DNA of 37,752 nucleotides, taken from a virus. The stretch spans positions 1-37,752 of IMG/VR virus record IMGVR_UViG_3300047548_000442; one strand, 5' to 3'. The stretch's first letter is position 1; each line of letters starts with the position of its first letter. Under the pieces are notes generated by a model, which saw nothing but the letters and a program-made list of their open reading frames with translations, did not search any database and was not told where the DNA came from. Below are positions 1,387 through 7,435 of this stretch, one piece after another. A program made the position numbers and the translations under genes.

Positions 1387-2805
1387 TCACTCGCACTCAA
1401 CAAATTCACTGGTCCTGAAGTCGAACGAGACGTTGACGATGCCTTTCTTGCCGGGCAGTCCCATGCGAACCTTGGTAACCAGAATGTTAGCGCGGTTTTC
1501 GTTTGGATCGGGGCGATGGTAGGTCAGGCCGTAGTCAGCCTTGTTCGCCCAGTTTGCGCTGCCTGAAATATCGTAAAGGCCCGGAATCTTCTTGTGGCCC
1601 TCTTGCGGCTTTGTCGGGTGAGCAATGATCCAGAACGCAACGTCATATTGCTTGGCGAACCGCTTCACCATGCGAAGGCAACGGCTGATGTAATCCGTTT
1701 CGGTCTCGTCGCGGTTGCGCTTGTGTTCGACTTCATTCCACGGGTCGAGGACAATCATTTTCACCCCGTCGCGGGTTACGGCAATGCGGCAATATTCCAG
1801 AAACGCCTCAAGCGTCATCTCTGCATCTTCGTCCACAGACTGCGTGATAATCCGAAGGCGGTTGCGCAAAATGTCGTCAGCGTCGGTTAAATCCACCGTC
1901 CGAAGGTCTTGCTTGCCGCAACGCATAATCGCCATGCGCAGCCCGTCGATCAGGATTGGCTTAACGTCCGTTTCAAAGCTGGCAACGCATACGGGGAAGT
2001 TATACCGAAGGCAGTTGCCGACGATGCTGTTCATCAACGTGGACTTGCCCATGTTTGCAAAGCCAGTGACAACCGTGAGAGTGCCGGGGACAATGCTAAT
2101 CATGTCCGACAATGCCGTGACGCCTACCGGATAGCTGCGAACCTCGCCGCGCTCTGGGAAGTCATCAATCGTGTAAAGCCCCTTGATTGGATAGGGCTTG
2201 GCTGTGGTAATCATATCCACGACGCGCTGTGGCCCGTATTCGGTCAGGACTTCGTTCAAGTCTTTGCACGGGAACGGGTAATCCAGAAACTTGCAACGCT
2301 CTGCGCCAAGCAATGCCGCAAGGTCGCTGGCTAGGTTATAACCTGCTTGGTCAGCATCGACTGCCAGCACAAACTGGCCGACGTTCTTCAGCAGCTCTGC
2401 GTGACGGTCAACCCAATCATACCGCTTCGCCGTGTTCAAATCTTCAGTTTGCGATGCGGGCGCACCGTTGGGGACTGACACCACGAATTGAAAACCCGCT
2501 GTTATCGCCGCCAGTGCATCCCACTCCCCTTCCGTGATAATCACGGGCGCTTGGCCGGACTGCACTTTCGGGTCGAGCAAGCAATCCGCGTTCCACAACA
2601 ACAGAGGCGCTCCGGGGTCCATCATGTGCTTCTTTTCGGAAGTCAGGCGATGCTTGCGGTTCACAACCTCGCCGCGCTCCCAATACGGGACCGTGAGCCA
2701 TTGCGCCCCGAACTGTGGAGTTGTCGTTAGCCCAAACTTTTCGGCAAGCATTGGATCGATCCCGCGAGCCTGTATCCAATCCCTGTGGCGTTCGTGCATT
2801 GTCAT
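1387..2805 (-). CDS. T7 gp4-like primase-helicase (TOPRIM plus DnaB-type helicase)
   Basis: The 472-residue protein unwinds DNA at the phage fork and may make primers. The TOPRIM part shows EGEWD (92-96) and DADQAG (150-155). The RecA-like helicase shows Walker A GFANMGKST (248-256), a Walker B with IVLD (351-354) and IIAHPTK (393-399) near motif H3. The overall layout matches T7 gp4 or Twinkle. T7 gp4 is 566 residues and carries an N-terminal zinc ribbon. Here that ribbon is encoded just upstream in another frame (see 2444-2962). ATG 2805 has AGGAG nine to ten bases upstream, inside the zinc-ribbon reading frame. The gene is therefore expressed like the zinc-less 4B form unless a frameshift joins the two. 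No phage DNA polymerase is seen, so host polymerase is probably used. Confidence 0.93.
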   Translation of the reverse strand: MTMHERHRDWIQARGIDPMLAEKFGLTTTPQFGAQWLTVPYWERGEVVNRKHRLTSEKKHMMDPGAPLLLWNADCLLDPKVQSGQAPVIITEGEWDALAAITAGFQFVVSVPNGAPASQTEDLNTAKRYDWVDRHAELLKNVGQFVLAVDADQAGYNLASDLAALLGAERCKFLDYPFPCKDLNEVLTEYGPQRVVDMITTAKPYPIKGLYTIDDFPERGEVRSYPVGVTALSDMISIVPGTLTVVTGFANMGKSTLMNSIVGNCLRYNFPVCVASFETDVKPILIDGLRMAIMRCGKQDLRTVDLTDADDILRNRLRIITQSVDEDAEMTLEAFLEYCRIAVTRDGVKMIVLDPWNEVEHKRNRDETETDYISRCLRMVKRFAKQYDVAFWIIAHPTKPQEGHKKIPGLYDISGSANWANKADYGLTYHRPDPNENRANILVTKVRMGLPGKKGIVNVSFDFRTSEFVECE

Positions 2806-2962
2806 TTCCCGTTGCTCCTTTGAAATTGCAGTTGTGGCAGAGCCAGATCAGGCCCCCGTCAGTTTTTGATACGCTTAGGCAGCGGTCACGCTTGTTGCGC
2901 CGTGTCTGGCTGCACTGGGGGCAAAGCTGCTTGCCCGCTTTTGTGGGTTTCCAGTTCAGCAT
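2444..2962 (-). CDS. Primase zinc-ribbon ORF, out of frame with the helicase
   Basis: The first 50 residues carry two CxxC pairs (C14/C17 and C42/C45), spaced like the primase zinc ribbon of T7 gp4, which reads the priming site. The remaining 120 residues come from the frame overlapping the helicase gene and look like non-coding composition. The start ATG overlaps the previous stop as ATGCTGA. Either this is a separate zinc-ribbon protein with a meaningless tail, or a +1 shift near 2806-2830 joins it to the TOPRIM-helicase to give a full primase of about 520 residues, or one base is missing in the sequence. The domain call is strong, but the ORF end is doubtful. Confidence 0.7.
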   Translation of the reverse strand: MLNWKPTKAGKQLCPQCSQTRRNKRDRCLSVSKTDGGLIWLCHNCNFKGATGNDNARTPQGLDTGSRDRSNACRKVWANDNSTVRGAMAHGPVLGARRGCEPQASPDFRKEAHDGPRSASVVVERGLLARPESAVRPSARDYHGRGVGCTGGDNSGFSIRGVSPQRCARIAN

Positions 2963-3552
2963 GTTGGCATTTCCACTACGTTCGTATTTTTCATGCAGCG
3001 TTCAATGAACGCCACTGGGTCAACAGCCCGCTCAAGTTGAGCCGCCGTGATTGCCTTCGCTACGGTTGTTTGCTTCCCGCCCTTGCACCACTTGCCAATG
3101 AGTGCGCCGGGGTTGTTGGAATGGGGTTTCAAATACGCCTTTGCGTTTGACCAAAAATCACTGTCCGAATTGCTTTTATCTTTAGATAAAAGAACCTCTG
3201 TATCTGTCTCTGTATCTGGGGGCGTTACTGTAACGTTTCGTTTTGCACGATGCTTCGCTACACGTTCGCTCGAAGTGTCTGATTTATATTGGAATTTACT
3301 CCAGTTATGGGGTTCATAACCATCCGTTAAGCGGTCGATTAACCCCATGCTTATCAGTTGTTCAACGCCCGTTGATAGGTGGTCTAAGCGACGGTTAAGC
3401 ACATACCTAAGATCATCTAGGCATGGGATTGAACCATCATTTTCAGACGCCACGGCAAGCAATTCCACCCATAGGCGAAACTGTTTATCAGACAGGCGGG
3501 CGACCTTTGGATTACGCATCGCGTCGGCGTAAAAGCGGAACCAGCGGCTCAT
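2956..3552 (-). CDS. DnaT/replisome-organiser-like replication protein, 198 aa
   Basis: The N-terminus (MSRWFRFYADAMRNPKVARL) and the following DKQFRLWVELLAVASEN segment are typical of phage replisome-organiser proteins. These have an N-terminal winged helix, a variable charged linker (about residues 90-125, including a Ser/Thr/Asp-rich stretch) and a C-terminal segment that contacts the helicase. Such proteins open the origin or help load the helicase. The start at 3552 is fixed by an ATGA overlap with the preceding 56-residue gene, and a longer frame to 3588 is open but less likely. The position directly before the primase-helicase agrees with the role. Confidence 0.7.
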   Translation of the reverse strand: MSRWFRFYADAMRNPKVARLSDKQFRLWVELLAVASENDGSIPCLDDLRYVLNRRLDHLSTGVEQLISMGLIDRLTDGYEPHNWSKFQYKSDTSSERVAKHRAKRNVTVTPPDTETDTEVLLSKDKSNSDSDFWSNAKAYLKPHSNNPGALIGKWCKGGKQTTVAKAITAAQLERAVDPVAFIERCMKNTNVVEMPTC

Positions 3553-3719
3553 TTGTGTTGCAGTCCTTCGCGCTGGATAATCCACCAAGCTTCAAGGCTG
3601 GTGATTGCGCCATGCTCCCACGCAGCCACTACAGCGCGTTTAAGAATGGCTGGGACAAGCTCACCTATGGCGGCTGTTTCATCGTCATAGACGGGCCAGA
3701 TGGGGCTTAAATCGCTCAT
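3549..3719 (-). CDS. Small hypothetical protein, 56 aa
   Basis: This frame is flanked by ATGA overlaps on both sides, with RusA upstream and the DnaT-like gene downstream. It begins MSDLSPIWPVYDDE and has a C-terminal amphipathic helix ending in a basic tail (WWIIQREGLQHK). No domain is recognised. The perfect coupling and the lack of any other ORF in the interval support it as a real gene. Confidence 0.65.
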   Translation of the reverse strand: MSDLSPIWPVYDDETAAIGELVPAILKRAVVAAWEHGAITSLEAWWIIQREGLQHK

Positions 3720-4051: not shown

Positions 4052-4380
4052 GCCGCCAGCCTTTCCCAATAAGCTTGCAGATCGCCTGTGGTGCGCTTTG
4101 CGTGATAGCTGGCAAGCGCCTTGACTAGCGGATCGATGCCGTTGTCATTGGTCGTTTTGAGCGGTGGCGAAGGCTTTAAAGCCTCACCAACGACAACCGT
4201 GACACCAGCCCGGCTGCGCGGAATGCTGTGGCGCGGGTCGATGCCCATGACGATCTTGTCAATGTCGCAAGCGAACCAGTTGGTTCCATGCACTTTGTTA
4301 ATGAAGTTAGCGACAGCGGCGCTGTCCTTAACCTGACGCGCCAGTTGCTTGGCTTCATACATGGCGAGTTTGCGGTTCAT
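4048..4380 (-). CDS. Hypothetical protein, 110 aa
   Basis: This is a mixed helical protein, basic at the N-terminus (MNRKLAMYEAKQLARQVK), with a hydrophobic core strand around residue 60 (AGVTVVVGEAL) and a C-terminal helix. No family is recognised. The start at 4380 is defined by an ATGA overlap with the previous gene, and the stop overlaps the RusA-like start. It lies early in the replication operon, so a role in replication or takeover is possible but unproven. Confidence 0.65.
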   Translation of the reverse strand: MNRKLAMYEAKQLARQVKDSAAVANFINKVHGTNWFACDIDKIVMGIDPRHSIPRSRAGVTVVVGEALKPSPPLKTTNDNGIDPLVKALASYHAKRTTGDLQAYWERLAA

Positions 4381-4592
4381 GCCTTGCCTCGATTCCGAAG
4401 CGACTGTGGCGTTCCAAAAACAGCGTCCAGATACCGCTGGCGGCGTTCCATTGACCAAGTGGCAAAGCGGCGGTCACGCAGATCGGGACGCGGCTTTAGC
4501 GTATCAGCCAAACGAGGCTTGCGTTGAGCGATCTCAATATCCGCTTCGCTAGGCCCCAGCGTTTTGATAAAGAGTTTTTGAAAGATATTCAT
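4377..4592 (-). CDS. Small basic hypothetical protein, 71 aa (first gene of operon)
   Basis: This is the first gene of the leftward replication operon. ATG 4592 is preceded by a strong ribosome binding site (AGGGGGG, nine bases upstream). A TTG at 4601 is in frame but lies inside the site. The protein is rich in Arg and Lys, starts with a hydrophobic helix (MNIFQKLFIKTLG) and has a basic middle (RRFATWSMERRQRYLDAVF). No family is recognised. It may be a small nucleic-acid-binding protein. Confidence 0.65.
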   Translation of the reverse strand: MNIFQKLFIKTLGPSEADIEIAQRKPRLADTLKPRPDLRDRRFATWSMERRQRYLDAVFGTPQSLRNRGKA

Positions 4593-4764
4593 AGCAAACA
4601 ACCCCCCTAAATTCTTGGTAAATGCCTGTTAATAAAGTGCTTTTGCCTTGCCCTGTTGCGGCGTTACGTATCTTTACCTATTGCGCTAATTTTGAATTTG
4701 CCGATGATTAAGGCATGGACAGATTGGAATATGCGGGACGCGCTATCACCCCCCAGCGCGCCCC

Positions 4765-4819
4765 TTCCCGTGACGGGAAACAGGTTGGGGCTAGTGCCGG
4801 AGAGGAGCGCACTAGCCCC
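4765..4819 (-). promoter_or_regulatory. Double hairpin in the leader of the replication operon (put-like?)
   Basis: Two perfect inverted repeats lie seven bases apart. GGGGCTAGTGC (4787-4797) and GCACTAGCCCC (4809-4819) form an 11-pair stem with an 11-base loop. TTCCCGT (4765-4771) and ACGGGAA (4773-4779) form a 7-pair arm around one base. They lie between the Cro-like gene and the first replication gene, so a leftward transcript from the Cro promoter would contain both. Neither is followed by a T run, so they are not ordinary terminators. The arrangement recalls HK022 put RNA, or alternatively an attenuator or an origin structure. The rest of 4593-4860 shows no convincing gene; a 65-codon frame (4664-4861) runs through the hairpins and is doubtful. 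Confidence 0.5.
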
Positions 4820-4860
4820 GCCGTGACGCGCAGTTTCGGAGAGCGCAGTCAGGCAACTCA

Positions 4861-5043
4861 TTATGAGGCCACCGTGAGCGAAACGCCCTTTTCATCGGCA
4901 AGCCGCTTGAGACTATCGATCCGCCACTTTGGAATGCTGCCGGAAGTCTTCCAGCTTGATACCGTGGACGGGGTGAGATCTAGGGACTTGGCAACAAAAC
5001 TTGTTCCGCCCAGTTGCTCAATAATTTGTGTTGCTGTCATCAT
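4861..5043 (-). CDS. Cro-like HTH regulator, 60 aa
   Basis: This is a small single-domain DNA-binding protein. The helix-turn-helix is visible in FVAKSLDLTPSTVSSWKTSG (residues about 16-35), followed by a helix IDSLKRLADEKGV. Size, orientation and position, divergent from the CI-like gene with operators between them, fit a Cro-type repressor that favours lytic growth by shutting off the repressor promoter. Two ATGs (5043 and 5040) are possible, and no strong ribosome binding site is seen. It is the first gene of the leftward early transcript. Confidence 0.8.
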   Translation of the reverse strand: MMTATQIIEQLGGTSFVAKSLDLTPSTVSSWKTSGSIPKWRIDSLKRLADEKGVSLTVAS

Positions 5044-5047
5044 GGGC

Positions 5048-5076
5048 TTGATTGTTACGATAAACGTAACTTAGAT
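5048..5076 (+). promoter_or_regulatory. Candidate promoter of the CI-like repressor
   Basis: A TTGATT hexamer (5048-5053) and TTAGAT (5071-5076) are 17 bases apart. The perfect operator at 5054-5070 fills the spacer exactly, so a bound repressor would block or control this promoter. The -10 match is weak. With this promoter, ATG 5075 cannot be the start codon, which would favour ATG 5138. Confidence 0.35.
5054..5070. promoter_or_regulatory. Operator O1 (perfect inverted repeat)
   Basis: GTTACG, five bases (ATAAA) and CGTAAC form a perfect palindrome with 6-base arms, between the divergent cro-like and ci-like genes. The same core TTACG-N5-CGTAA recurs at 5088, 5822 and 5857, which marks it as the binding site of the phage repressor and/or Cro. 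Confidence 0.75.
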
Positions 5077-5815
5077 GCAACATCTAATTACGCTATTCGT
5101 TAATGACAATTCCGAACAATGGTCGCAAACCCCACCAATGCTTACACATGATGAAATTCTCGATGAGCTTCGGCGACAAATCGACAAGCGCCTGATAAAA
5201 CAAGTTGCAATTGCAACTACCTTGGGTATTCCTGATTCAAGGGTCGCAGAAATGCGCAAAGGGACAAGACGCATCCAACCCAACGAAATGCCTGTGCTTG
5301 CCGGAATGCTAGGAATGGCATCGCAAGACCGGGTGATTGGTTCCACTCTGGGAGGAGTAAAGCGGATTCCTATTCTTGGTAAAGTTGCCGCCGGAGTGTG
5401 GCTAGAACAGTCCTTAACGCCTCACGATAACGACGACTACGTGGCTTATGACAACCTTGCGGGGGATGCAGACACAAGCAGTTTGTTTGCTGTTGTTACC
5501 GAAGGCGACAGCATGAATTTGGCATTCCCCGCGAACGCCGTGTTGATTTGCCGCCACATCCGCAACGGCTTCGTTACGATCCGCGATGGCGACTATGTTG
5601 TAGTCGAACGCGAGAACCACGACCTGCGCGAAATGACATGCAAGCGCATCCAGATCGATGCCAATGGCGACTTTTTGCTTGTCAGTGAGTCCACTAACGA
5701 AAAGCATAAAGAACCTATCCGCGTTCAGCGTTCAACCGATGACGATTACACCGACATAGGGGTAAACATCGTCGGCAAGCTGGTGCGGATCGTCGTGGAT
5801 TTTGAGCGCCACTAA
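5075..5815 (+). CDS. CI-like repressor with S24 (LexA-type) peptidase domain
   Basis: This is the master repressor of the lysogenic state. The N-terminal region (about residues 25-80) holds an HTH domain (IKQVAIATTLGIPDSRVAEM). The C-terminal half is an S24 self-cleavage and dimerisation domain. GDSM at 144-147 supplies the catalytic Ser146, K190 (MTCKRI) is the likely general base, and AAG at 105-107 is the likely cleavage site. RecA-stimulated self-cleavage would trigger induction, as known for the family. The frame opens at ATG 5075, overlapping an operator and a -10 candidate. ATG 5138 gives 225 residues and is a reasonable alternative, but neither has a clear ribosome binding site. Confidence 0.9.
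   Translation: MQHLITLFVNDNSEQWSQTPPMLTHDEILDELRRQIDKRLIKQVAIATTLGIPDSRVAEMRKGTRRIQPNEMPVLAGMLGMASQDRVIGSTLGGVKRIPILGKVAAGVWLEQSLTPHDNDDYVAYDNLAGDADTSSLFAVVTEGDSMNLAFPANAVLICRHIRNGFVTIRDGDYVVVERENHDLREMTCKRIQIDANGDFLLVSESTNEKHKEPIRVQRSTDDDYTDIGVNIVGKLVRIVVDFERH
5088..5102. promoter_or_regulatory. Operator O2 (one mismatch)
   Basis: TTACG-CTATT-CGTTA has one mismatch to the core TTACG-N5-CGTAA. Its centre is 33 bases from that of O1, about three helical turns, so dimers on O1 and O2 would face the same side of DNA. It overlaps the first codons of the longest CI reading frame, another hint that the real CI start may be further downstream. Confidence 0.55.
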
Positions 5816-5821
5816 AATAAA

Positions 5822-5836
5822 TTACGCTTATCGTAA
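5822..5836. promoter_or_regulatory. Operator O3 (perfect)
   Basis: TTACG-CTTAT-CGTAA is a perfect 5-base-arm palindrome, extended by A and T on its flanks, just after the CI-like stop. It lies upstream of the candidate early-right promoter and pairs with O4. The shared core with O1 links control of both early arms. Confidence 0.7.
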
Positions 5837-5844
5837 TAAAATGC

Positions 5845-5874
5845 TTGACGGGTAGCTTACGAATATCGTAACAG
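5845..5874 (+). promoter_or_regulatory. Candidate early-right promoter
   Basis: TTGACG (5845-5850) and TAACAG (5869-5874) are 18 bases apart, and the operator O4 overlaps the spacer and the -10. Transcription would begin about 20 bases before the first early-right gene (ATG 5902). Repressor on O3 and O4 would silence the whole rightward operon. The -35 is good and the -10 only fair. Confidence 0.45.
5857..5871. promoter_or_regulatory. Operator O4 (perfect)
   Basis: TTACG-AATAT-CGTAA is a perfect palindrome centred 35 bases from O3. It overlaps the candidate -10 region of the early-right promoter, the usual place for a repressor to block RNA polymerase. Confidence 0.7.
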
Positions 5875-6341: not shown

Positions 6342-6583
6342 GCATCACCCTTGCCCAATTCGAGCGCATCGACAGCCTGTTGACGCAACAGCTTCGCGCT
6401 GGCCGCTTCGAAACGTGCGCCGATCCACGCGGCTATATCCAGAACAGCAACCGCCTTCTTGACGCCTGTGCTGATGCGCTGGGTTGGGAATTTACCGAAC
6501 GCTACGCCAGCGCAGAGGATTGCGCCGCAGCAATTGTCACGCAGGCGCTGTTGTGCGCCGACTTTGTGGGAGAGAACGCATGA
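6338..6583 (+). CDS. Hypothetical protein, 81 aa
   Basis: This small protein has three Cys residues spread along it and a helical profile (SITLAQFERIDSLLTQQLRA). No domain is recognised. It is translationally coupled by ATGA overlaps to both neighbours. The function is unknown; it is part of the early small-gene block. Confidence 0.65.
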   Translation: MSITLAQFERIDSLLTQQLRAGRFETCADPRGYIQNSNRLLDACADALGWEFTERYASAEDCAAAIVTQALLCADFVGENA

Positions 6584-6842: not shown

Positions 6843-7435
6843 TTACCAGTGAAACAATCGACAAGATCGCCCCAGCCTTTGTGAAGGCGCAGGCCGCTTG
6901 CAATGGTGCAAAGAAGTCCAGCAACAACCCGCACTTCAAGTCGAAATATGCCGACCTTGGTGCCGTCTGGGATGCTTGCGAAGGCGCACTAGAAGCCAAC
7001 AAGCTTTCCGTCTTGCAAGGGCTTGGCGAAGTCATTGACGGCAAGATGCAGATCGAAACCATGTTGCTGCACGATAGCGGCCAGTGGATTAAATCGCTGG
7101 CGTCTATCCCCCTGCCCAAAGCCGACCCGCAGGGATACGGCAGCGCGTCCACATACGCCCGCCGTTATACGCTGGCTGCGCTTATGGGCATCGTTCAAGA
7201 GGACGACGACGGCAACGCTGCAAGCCGCCCTGTGCCGGAAAAGAAGGCCGAGCCACTAATCAGCACCGAACAGCGCCTAGACTTGCAAGGGCTTATCGAA
7301 GGCACTGGCAGCAACATCATTGCGTTCTGCCAATTCTATAAGATTGCATCGCTCCCCGATCTGCCAGCCAGCAAGTTCGACCATGCCAAGAAAAGCCTGA
7401 TGAACAAGCTGGGCAAAGCGGGAGAGGCAGCATGA
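6839..7435 (+). CDS. erf: ERF-family single-strand annealing protein
   Basis: The 198-residue protein resembles P22 Erf and related annealing proteins. The N-terminal core carries FVKAQAACNGAKKSSNNPHF, KSKYADLGAVWDAC and the GSASTYARRYTLAALMGI block (about residues 99-116), which is diagnostic for the family. Such proteins anneal complementary single strands and promote circularisation and recombination of phage DNA. The acidic DDDGNAA stretch after the core and a helical C-terminus follow the usual layout. The next two genes encode an exonuclease and SSB, so this is a complete recombination module. Confidence 0.9.
   Translation: MITSETIDKIAPAFVKAQAACNGAKKSSNNPHFKSKYADLGAVWDACEGALEANKLSVLQGLGEVIDGKMQIETMLLHDSGQWIKSLASIPLPKADPQGYGSASTYARRYTLAALMGIVQEDDDGNAASRPVPEKKAEPLISTEQRLDLQGLIEGTGSNIIAFCQFYKIASLPDLPASKFDHAKKSLMNKLGKAGEAA

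Follow-up and report, generated by a model that had tools for sequence, protein, structure and literature searches.

Genomic setting of the leader

The window, that is, the whole stretch of 37,752 nucleotides of phage DNA analysed here, has no DNA similarity to named phages, and we regard the phage as temperate and of the Sphingomonadales type. Its cro-replication early operon lies on the minus strand, where a Cro-like gene is followed by a gap of 268 bases (cro at 4861 to the ATG at 4592), a small gene, a replication initiator and a primase/helicase (Table 1). No coding signal was detected in the gap behind cro on either strand, and an open reading frame running through the hairpins (4664-4861) was rejected as coding because its coding score was negative. 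Four near-palindromes of the form TTACG-N5-CGTAA flank the CI-like gene on both sides (5055-5069, 5088-5102, 5822-5836 and 5857-5871); they are probably the CI/Cro operators of both early promoters.

Table 1 Features of the early region of the window
Feature	Position	Strand	Description
SL1	4820..4854	-	GCCUGACUGCGC-UCUCCGAAACU-GCGCGUCACGGC; 10-11 pairs, small bulges; UCUCC in loop
SL2	4787..4819	-	GGGGCUAGUGC-GCUCCUCUCCG-GCACUAGCCCC; perfect 11-bp hairpin
Single-stranded tail after SL2	4778..4786	-	AACCUGUUU
15-bp perfect dyad	4765..4779	unspecified (.)	TTCCCGTGACGGGAA; 7-pair stem of the preliminary description; no counterpart recognised in relatives
Further hairpin	4735..4764	-	GGGGCGCGCUG-GGGGGUGA-UAGCGCGUCCC; 11 pairs, 2 G-U; G-rich loop
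Cro-like HTH gene (P22_Cro/YdaS type)	4861..5043	-	just upstream of SL1, common transcript
CI-like repressor with S24 peptidase domain	5075..5815	+	divergent from the operon
First gene 3' of the element	4377..4592	-	no known family; SD AGGGGGG
Replication initiation protein	2956..3588	-	phrog_3926 / Phage_rep_org_N
DNA primase/helicase	1387..2805	-	served to gather relatives

Two abutting hairpins behind cro

Two GC-rich hairpins with loops of the UCC(C/U)C type stand in the pR-type leader 3' of cro, with SL1 upstream on the operon strand and abutting SL2 with zero spacer. The SL2 interval reads GGGGCTAGTGC, an 11-nt loop and GCACTAGCCCC, exactly the 11-pair stem with an 11-base loop reported in the preliminary description of this DNA. 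It is the sole perfect inverted repeat of at least 10 bp with a loop of at most 16 in the window, and among the 86 hairpins above a strict score in a symmetric scan of the window and its relatives (900 kb) it was the only one from the window. Folding of the 70 nt of SL1 and SL2 on the operon strand gave -39.1 kcal/mol (z = -6.07; none of 200 shuffles equalled it), and z = -4.9 on the opposite strand. The sequence UCUCCG is common to both loops and was also found as a direct repeat. Behind the 11-bp hairpin the operon-strand tail is AACCUGUUUCCC, which confirms the lack of a T run noted earlier; a terminator scan called no intrinsic terminator at the element, whose GC-rich hairpins are not followed by a U run. 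The gaps of the window's other early operon held no second C-loop hairpin.

The preliminary description had paired the 11-bp stem with a 7-pair stem, listing the 11-pair stem first, which is indeed the order of the minus strand and hence of the operon. Its seven-base distance between the two repeats and its length for the gap were both correct, and the 7-pair stem exists as an exact inverted repeat, TTCCCGT-G-ACGGGAA, although as RNA it has only 6 pairs and a 3-nt loop. The pair as named is not the conserved one, which consists of SL1 and SL2. The 15-bp dyad is possibly within chance (by estimate, about 0.1 expected in the gap); it has the length of an operator, with a core different from that of the operators, and is possibly a protein site or the site of a third regulator. 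The further hairpin starts 22 nt after SL2, and its G-rich loop could in principle kiss the C-rich loops.

Recurrence of the design in related phages

Relatives were gathered via primase/helicase homology (80 viral and 28 genome loci) and their genes were called with a simple, purpose-written scorer; the closest named hosts are Sphingopyxis, Novosphingobium, Sphingomonas and Sphingobium. In the interval from cro to the following genes, many of these relatives have a GC-rich C-loop hairpin on the sense strand, often with a second hairpin 0-6 nt before it, and the downstream gene is often a CII-like HTH protein. The recurring design comprises two adjacent GC-rich hairpins with UCC/CCC-rich sense-strand loops, often followed by AACC or a short U tail. 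Tandem hairpins at the same position in many phages bear out the earlier proposal that the post-cro leader holds an RNA element made of two neighbouring stem-loops. Temperate phages of the Sphingomonadales type share the architecture, the position and the loop motif; their stem sequences turn over and the pairing is kept.

Examples include L054 (TCACGGGC-GCCCCCCT-GCTCGTGA and GCCCGCGCGGGGAG-CCTCCA-CTACCCGCGCGGGT), L028 (TCCCGCA-TCCTACCC-TGCGGGA and GCTGGCGGAGC-ATCCCCCC-GCTCCGCCAGC) and L074, which has CCTCCTCCC in both loops. L086 contains two near-identical tandem elements (576-645 and 1440-1520) that flank a methyltransferase-like gene and precede two different genes, and L061/L062 carry a copy of the element in the other operon. 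Each L086 element is followed by AATGTGGAGGGGCGGTAGGTGG and a GTG start. In L049, L054 and L064 the hairpins overlap small open reading frames and may have a dual use as RNA and coding sequence. The element is missing in many relatives, including close ones such as L033.

The design is also present in the isolate Sphingopyxis phage VSN-002, where the gap from Cro to the annotated CII gene reads CCGCGCG-TCCCGCCTCATCTC-CGCGCGG, a single A and GGGGAGCGAGGTA-ATCAACCC-TGCCTCGCTCCCC. On a contig whose CII shares 90% identity with the VSN-002 protein, both hairpins are swapped for others of the same design. The same design occurs in Ssp-JY40/Yong-M3-232. These two belong to a group (L171-L174: Pan3, Pam1, Ssp-JY40 and Yong-M3-232) deposited as cyanobacterial, yet carrying a CII-like protein; two of the four have the tandem C-loop element of alphaproteobacterial phages, and the host labels may deserve a second look.

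A search with the exact hairpin returned zero matches, and the CII-like family yielded few additional loci beyond the leaders studied. With a fixed outer stem and tail (GGGGCT...AGCCCCAACC), 106 stretches were reported, and the C-loop pair was present in 0 of the 82 matches examined; because these 82 lack the pair, the outer stem common to the window and Ssp-JY40 is not evidence of descent. The GGGGCT...AGCCCCAACC hairpins that occur without the C-loop pair in other phage contigs (L200, L204, L210, L216, L224, L230, L244) are a different recurring hairpin.

Position and pairing

The stem sequences vary too much to be aligned usefully, so the design was scored with a structural descriptor rather than a covariance model. 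Once the descriptor existed, further loci were fetched by Cro homology alone, together with one isolate, also by Cro; parts of the relatives set had been seen before the tests were defined. Among the loci with Cro homology (n = 27, window excluded), tandem hairpins with at least one C-rich loop were found downstream of cro in 9 of 27 on the sense strand, in none on the antisense strand and in 2 of 324 control windows (p = 1e-9), a criterion looser than the original one, which asked for C-rich loops in both hairpins and gave 6 of 27 loci against 1 of 324 control windows. For the 13 loci fetched after the descriptor, the design was present in five (p = 7e-7). The window was left out of these counts since it fails the automatic descriptor owing to the bulge in SL1.

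Pairing was assessed in the alignable homologous leaders L049/L121/L054/L051, where 95% of cells are paired and 9 of 22 pairs are changed on both sides; none of 500 shuffles did as well, and slid registers gave 34-41%. The preliminary description had rightly named conservation in relatives as the test, and in these leaders the structure is kept with compensating changes. Across the stems, G-U combinations (63) outnumber A-C (32), favouring the operon strand, a count that is supporting only, since part of the starting set came from searches that permitted G-U. Taken with the recurrence, these data indicate that the element is almost certainly a real RNA element.

Loops and tails

In 29 elements the loops are 55% C, a composition biased upward because pyrimidine richness of the loops was one of the grounds on which some of the elements had been chosen. 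Conditional on composition, the shuffle test found UCC in 45 of 53 loops where composition-matched shuffles gave 30.5, with z scores of 3.7 for UCCUC and 3.2 for CCUCCC. Equally strong host hairpins, taken from 400 kb of a Sphingopyxis chromosome, show a loop C content of 0.33 and UCC/CCC in 20% of loops, compared with 21 of 27 sense leader hairpins chosen by stem score alone (p = 2.6e-9).

Pairing of the loops with Shine-Dalgarno (SD) regions is better than their pairing with random sites and, by a small margin (mean z -0.9 +/- 0.3), better than that of shuffled loops, with no specific target found. About half of the loops are poly-C rather than CUCC, and these do no better than shuffled loops in SD pairing. 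No phage-specific preference of loops for the SDs of their own phage was seen, and for 19 elements no cis complement to the loops above chance was present within 150 nt on either side. In the other operon of the window, the genes starting at 6580 and 7432 have GGGAGAG(G) ribosome sites (6558-6582 and 7410-7434, plus strand) complementary to the loop sequence CUCUCC.

Tails are of the AAC type in 10 of the 29 elements and are enriched in U at positions 4-8 (45%, p = 1e-10); at 9-15 the U content is back at background level. U-rich runs follow the hairpin in L003, L045, L074 and L017, and Pan3 and Pam1 have canonical U-run terminators in the same gap; tails with no U run include those of VSN-002 (GAACCAAA), JY40 (AACCCUAC) and L156 (AACCUCAU).

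Comparison with known systems

In lambda, the nutR/tR1 region lies between cro and cII, the same place as the element, and U-run terminators stand there in some relatives. The leader described here differs in having two C-loop hairpins, with no U run in the window, and no boxA/boxB pair or N-like gene was identified. The phage c4 and P4 CI antisense RNAs are likewise structured RNAs of the immunity or early leader with active loops, and c4 RNA probably has an Rfam family. The element resembles them as a structured early-leader RNA whose loops would be the active part, but has no complementary cis target that we could find and no match in Rfam at the gathering threshold (window and 11 relatives), lax thresholds giving nothing relevant.

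The preliminary description had compared the hairpins to HK022 put, which consists of two adjacent stem-loops of about 70 nt with bulged stems in the early pR leader (PMC9378689). Its factor-free antitermination involves binding to the beta' zinc-binding domain of polymerase. The likeness is one of layout only, with a pair of stem-loops spanning about 70 nt behind pR. It does not extend to sequence, the best blastn match to the HK022 early region having E = 0.79 (the exact put coordinates were not located in that record), nor to copy number, since this phage has no left-operon copy, nor to the stems, which are long and nearly perfect in most members. The conserved UCC-rich loop has nothing similar suggested in the put literature consulted.

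A parallel in design is offered by the alpha-r14 (NfeR1, SmelA075/SmelA099) and cuckoo/CcsR sRNAs of Alphaproteobacteria, in which 2-4 hairpins in a row present C-rich anti-SD loops on stems that vary; RNase E releases the CcsR RNAs from transcripts in which they follow a small-protein gene (PMC10746234, PMC3927594, PMC10253847). SL1, SL2 and their relatives likewise have at least two hairpins in a row with variable stems, and L074 carries the exact motif CCUCCUCCC (PMC10746234, PMC3927594) in both loops. It is, however, the only one to do so: the motif is not in every loop, those of the window being GCUCCUCUCCG and UCUCCGAAACU, and the loops vary (UCCCC, CUCC, CUCCUCUCC). The element also differs in being phage-borne, within the pR leader after cro, with no DUF1127 gene recognised alongside.

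Discussion

The twin hairpins are apparently a regulatory RNA not described before; a literature search for tandem C-loop hairpins in phages found nothing. By analogy with the host sRNAs, a plausible, if still tentative, reading is that the leader carries an RNA that binds GGA-type ribosome sites in trans through its loops; we place this reading slightly ahead of a tR1-like attenuator. The loops would be the working part and would serve as anti-Shine-Dalgarno seeds, like those of the multi-hairpin alpha-r14/cuckoo RNAs. With pR active, the 3' region of cro could work in place or be released by processing in the single-stranded tail, and its loops would pair with GGA/GGGGA-type ribosome sites on mRNAs of the phage or the host and lower their translation; in this phage, the GGGAGAG ribosome sites before the 6580 and 7432 genes would fit the loops well. 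Pairing with ribosome sites is supported by a UCC motif beyond composition, by SD complementarity and by the alpha-r14/cuckoo-like design. It is weakened by the want of a specific target, by the poly-C loops and by the absence of the element from many relatives, and also because a terminator would account no less well for the position and the U-enriched tails.

Such a terminator, in which the second hairpin and a short U-rich tail, or Rho loading on stem-held C-rich loops, would stop some pR transcripts before the cII/replication genes and leave cro in excess, is a serious candidate, though short of probable. The lambda-like order cro-[hairpins]-cII, the U enrichment at tail positions 4-8, the U-run terminators of Pan3/Pam1 in the same gap and the U-rich runs in L003, L045, L074 and L017 all suit it. 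The tail of the window (AACCUGUUU) and those of VSN-002, JY40 and L156, which have no U run, do not; the scan found no terminator here, terminator-like host hairpins (few examples) have loops of about 4 nt, none of them C-rich, and attenuation leaves the two similar loops unexplained. An antitermination site of the put or nut kind, where the RNA would bind polymerase, alone or with a phage protein, and make it resist terminators further down the replication operon, appears unlikely. Beyond the put-like layout of neighbouring stem-loops in about 70 nt behind pR (PMC9378689), this idea gains from the near-identical tandem copies in L086 and the other-operon copy in L061/L062, but this phage has one copy only and no sequence similarity to the HK022 early region, most stems lack the bulges and odd pairs seen in put, and polymerase would be expected to constrain stem sequence, yet the stems vary freely.

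It is very improbable that the hairpins are a DNA-level element, such as an operator or origin hairpin, or a product of chance. A dyad can bind protein, and some perfect 11-bp inverted repeat is expected about once per phage genome (an estimate of roughly 25 in 850 kb). The 11-bp hairpin is nevertheless not an operator, because the probable repressor sites stand elsewhere (5055, 5088, 5822, 5857); moreover, the recurrence of the position, the tandem layout and the loop bias is far above chance level, the stems have more G-U than A-C, and compensating changes are present.

Returning to pairing with ribosome sites, we consider it possible, with less assurance, that the element represents a new class of phage leader RNA, recurring in temperate phages of Sphingomonadales-type hosts, a host-style riboregulator of ribosome sites whose stems are exchanged freely while the loops are kept. 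If true, the twin UCC-loop hairpins would add an RNA layer to the lysis-lysogeny switch. Early-operon control in temperate phages of GC-rich Alphaproteobacteria with no evident N-like gene is apparently little known, and here a conserved RNA occupies the lambda nutR/tR1 position; in the literature searched, UCC loops on exchangeable stems have so far been reported for host sRNAs and not for phages. The presence of the element in the isolated phage VSN-002 makes these ideas directly testable. VSN-002 (L170, MZ127829.1) may be a linear plasmid prophage, given its annotated telomere resolvase, and its Cro is annotated as a YdaS-type antitoxin.
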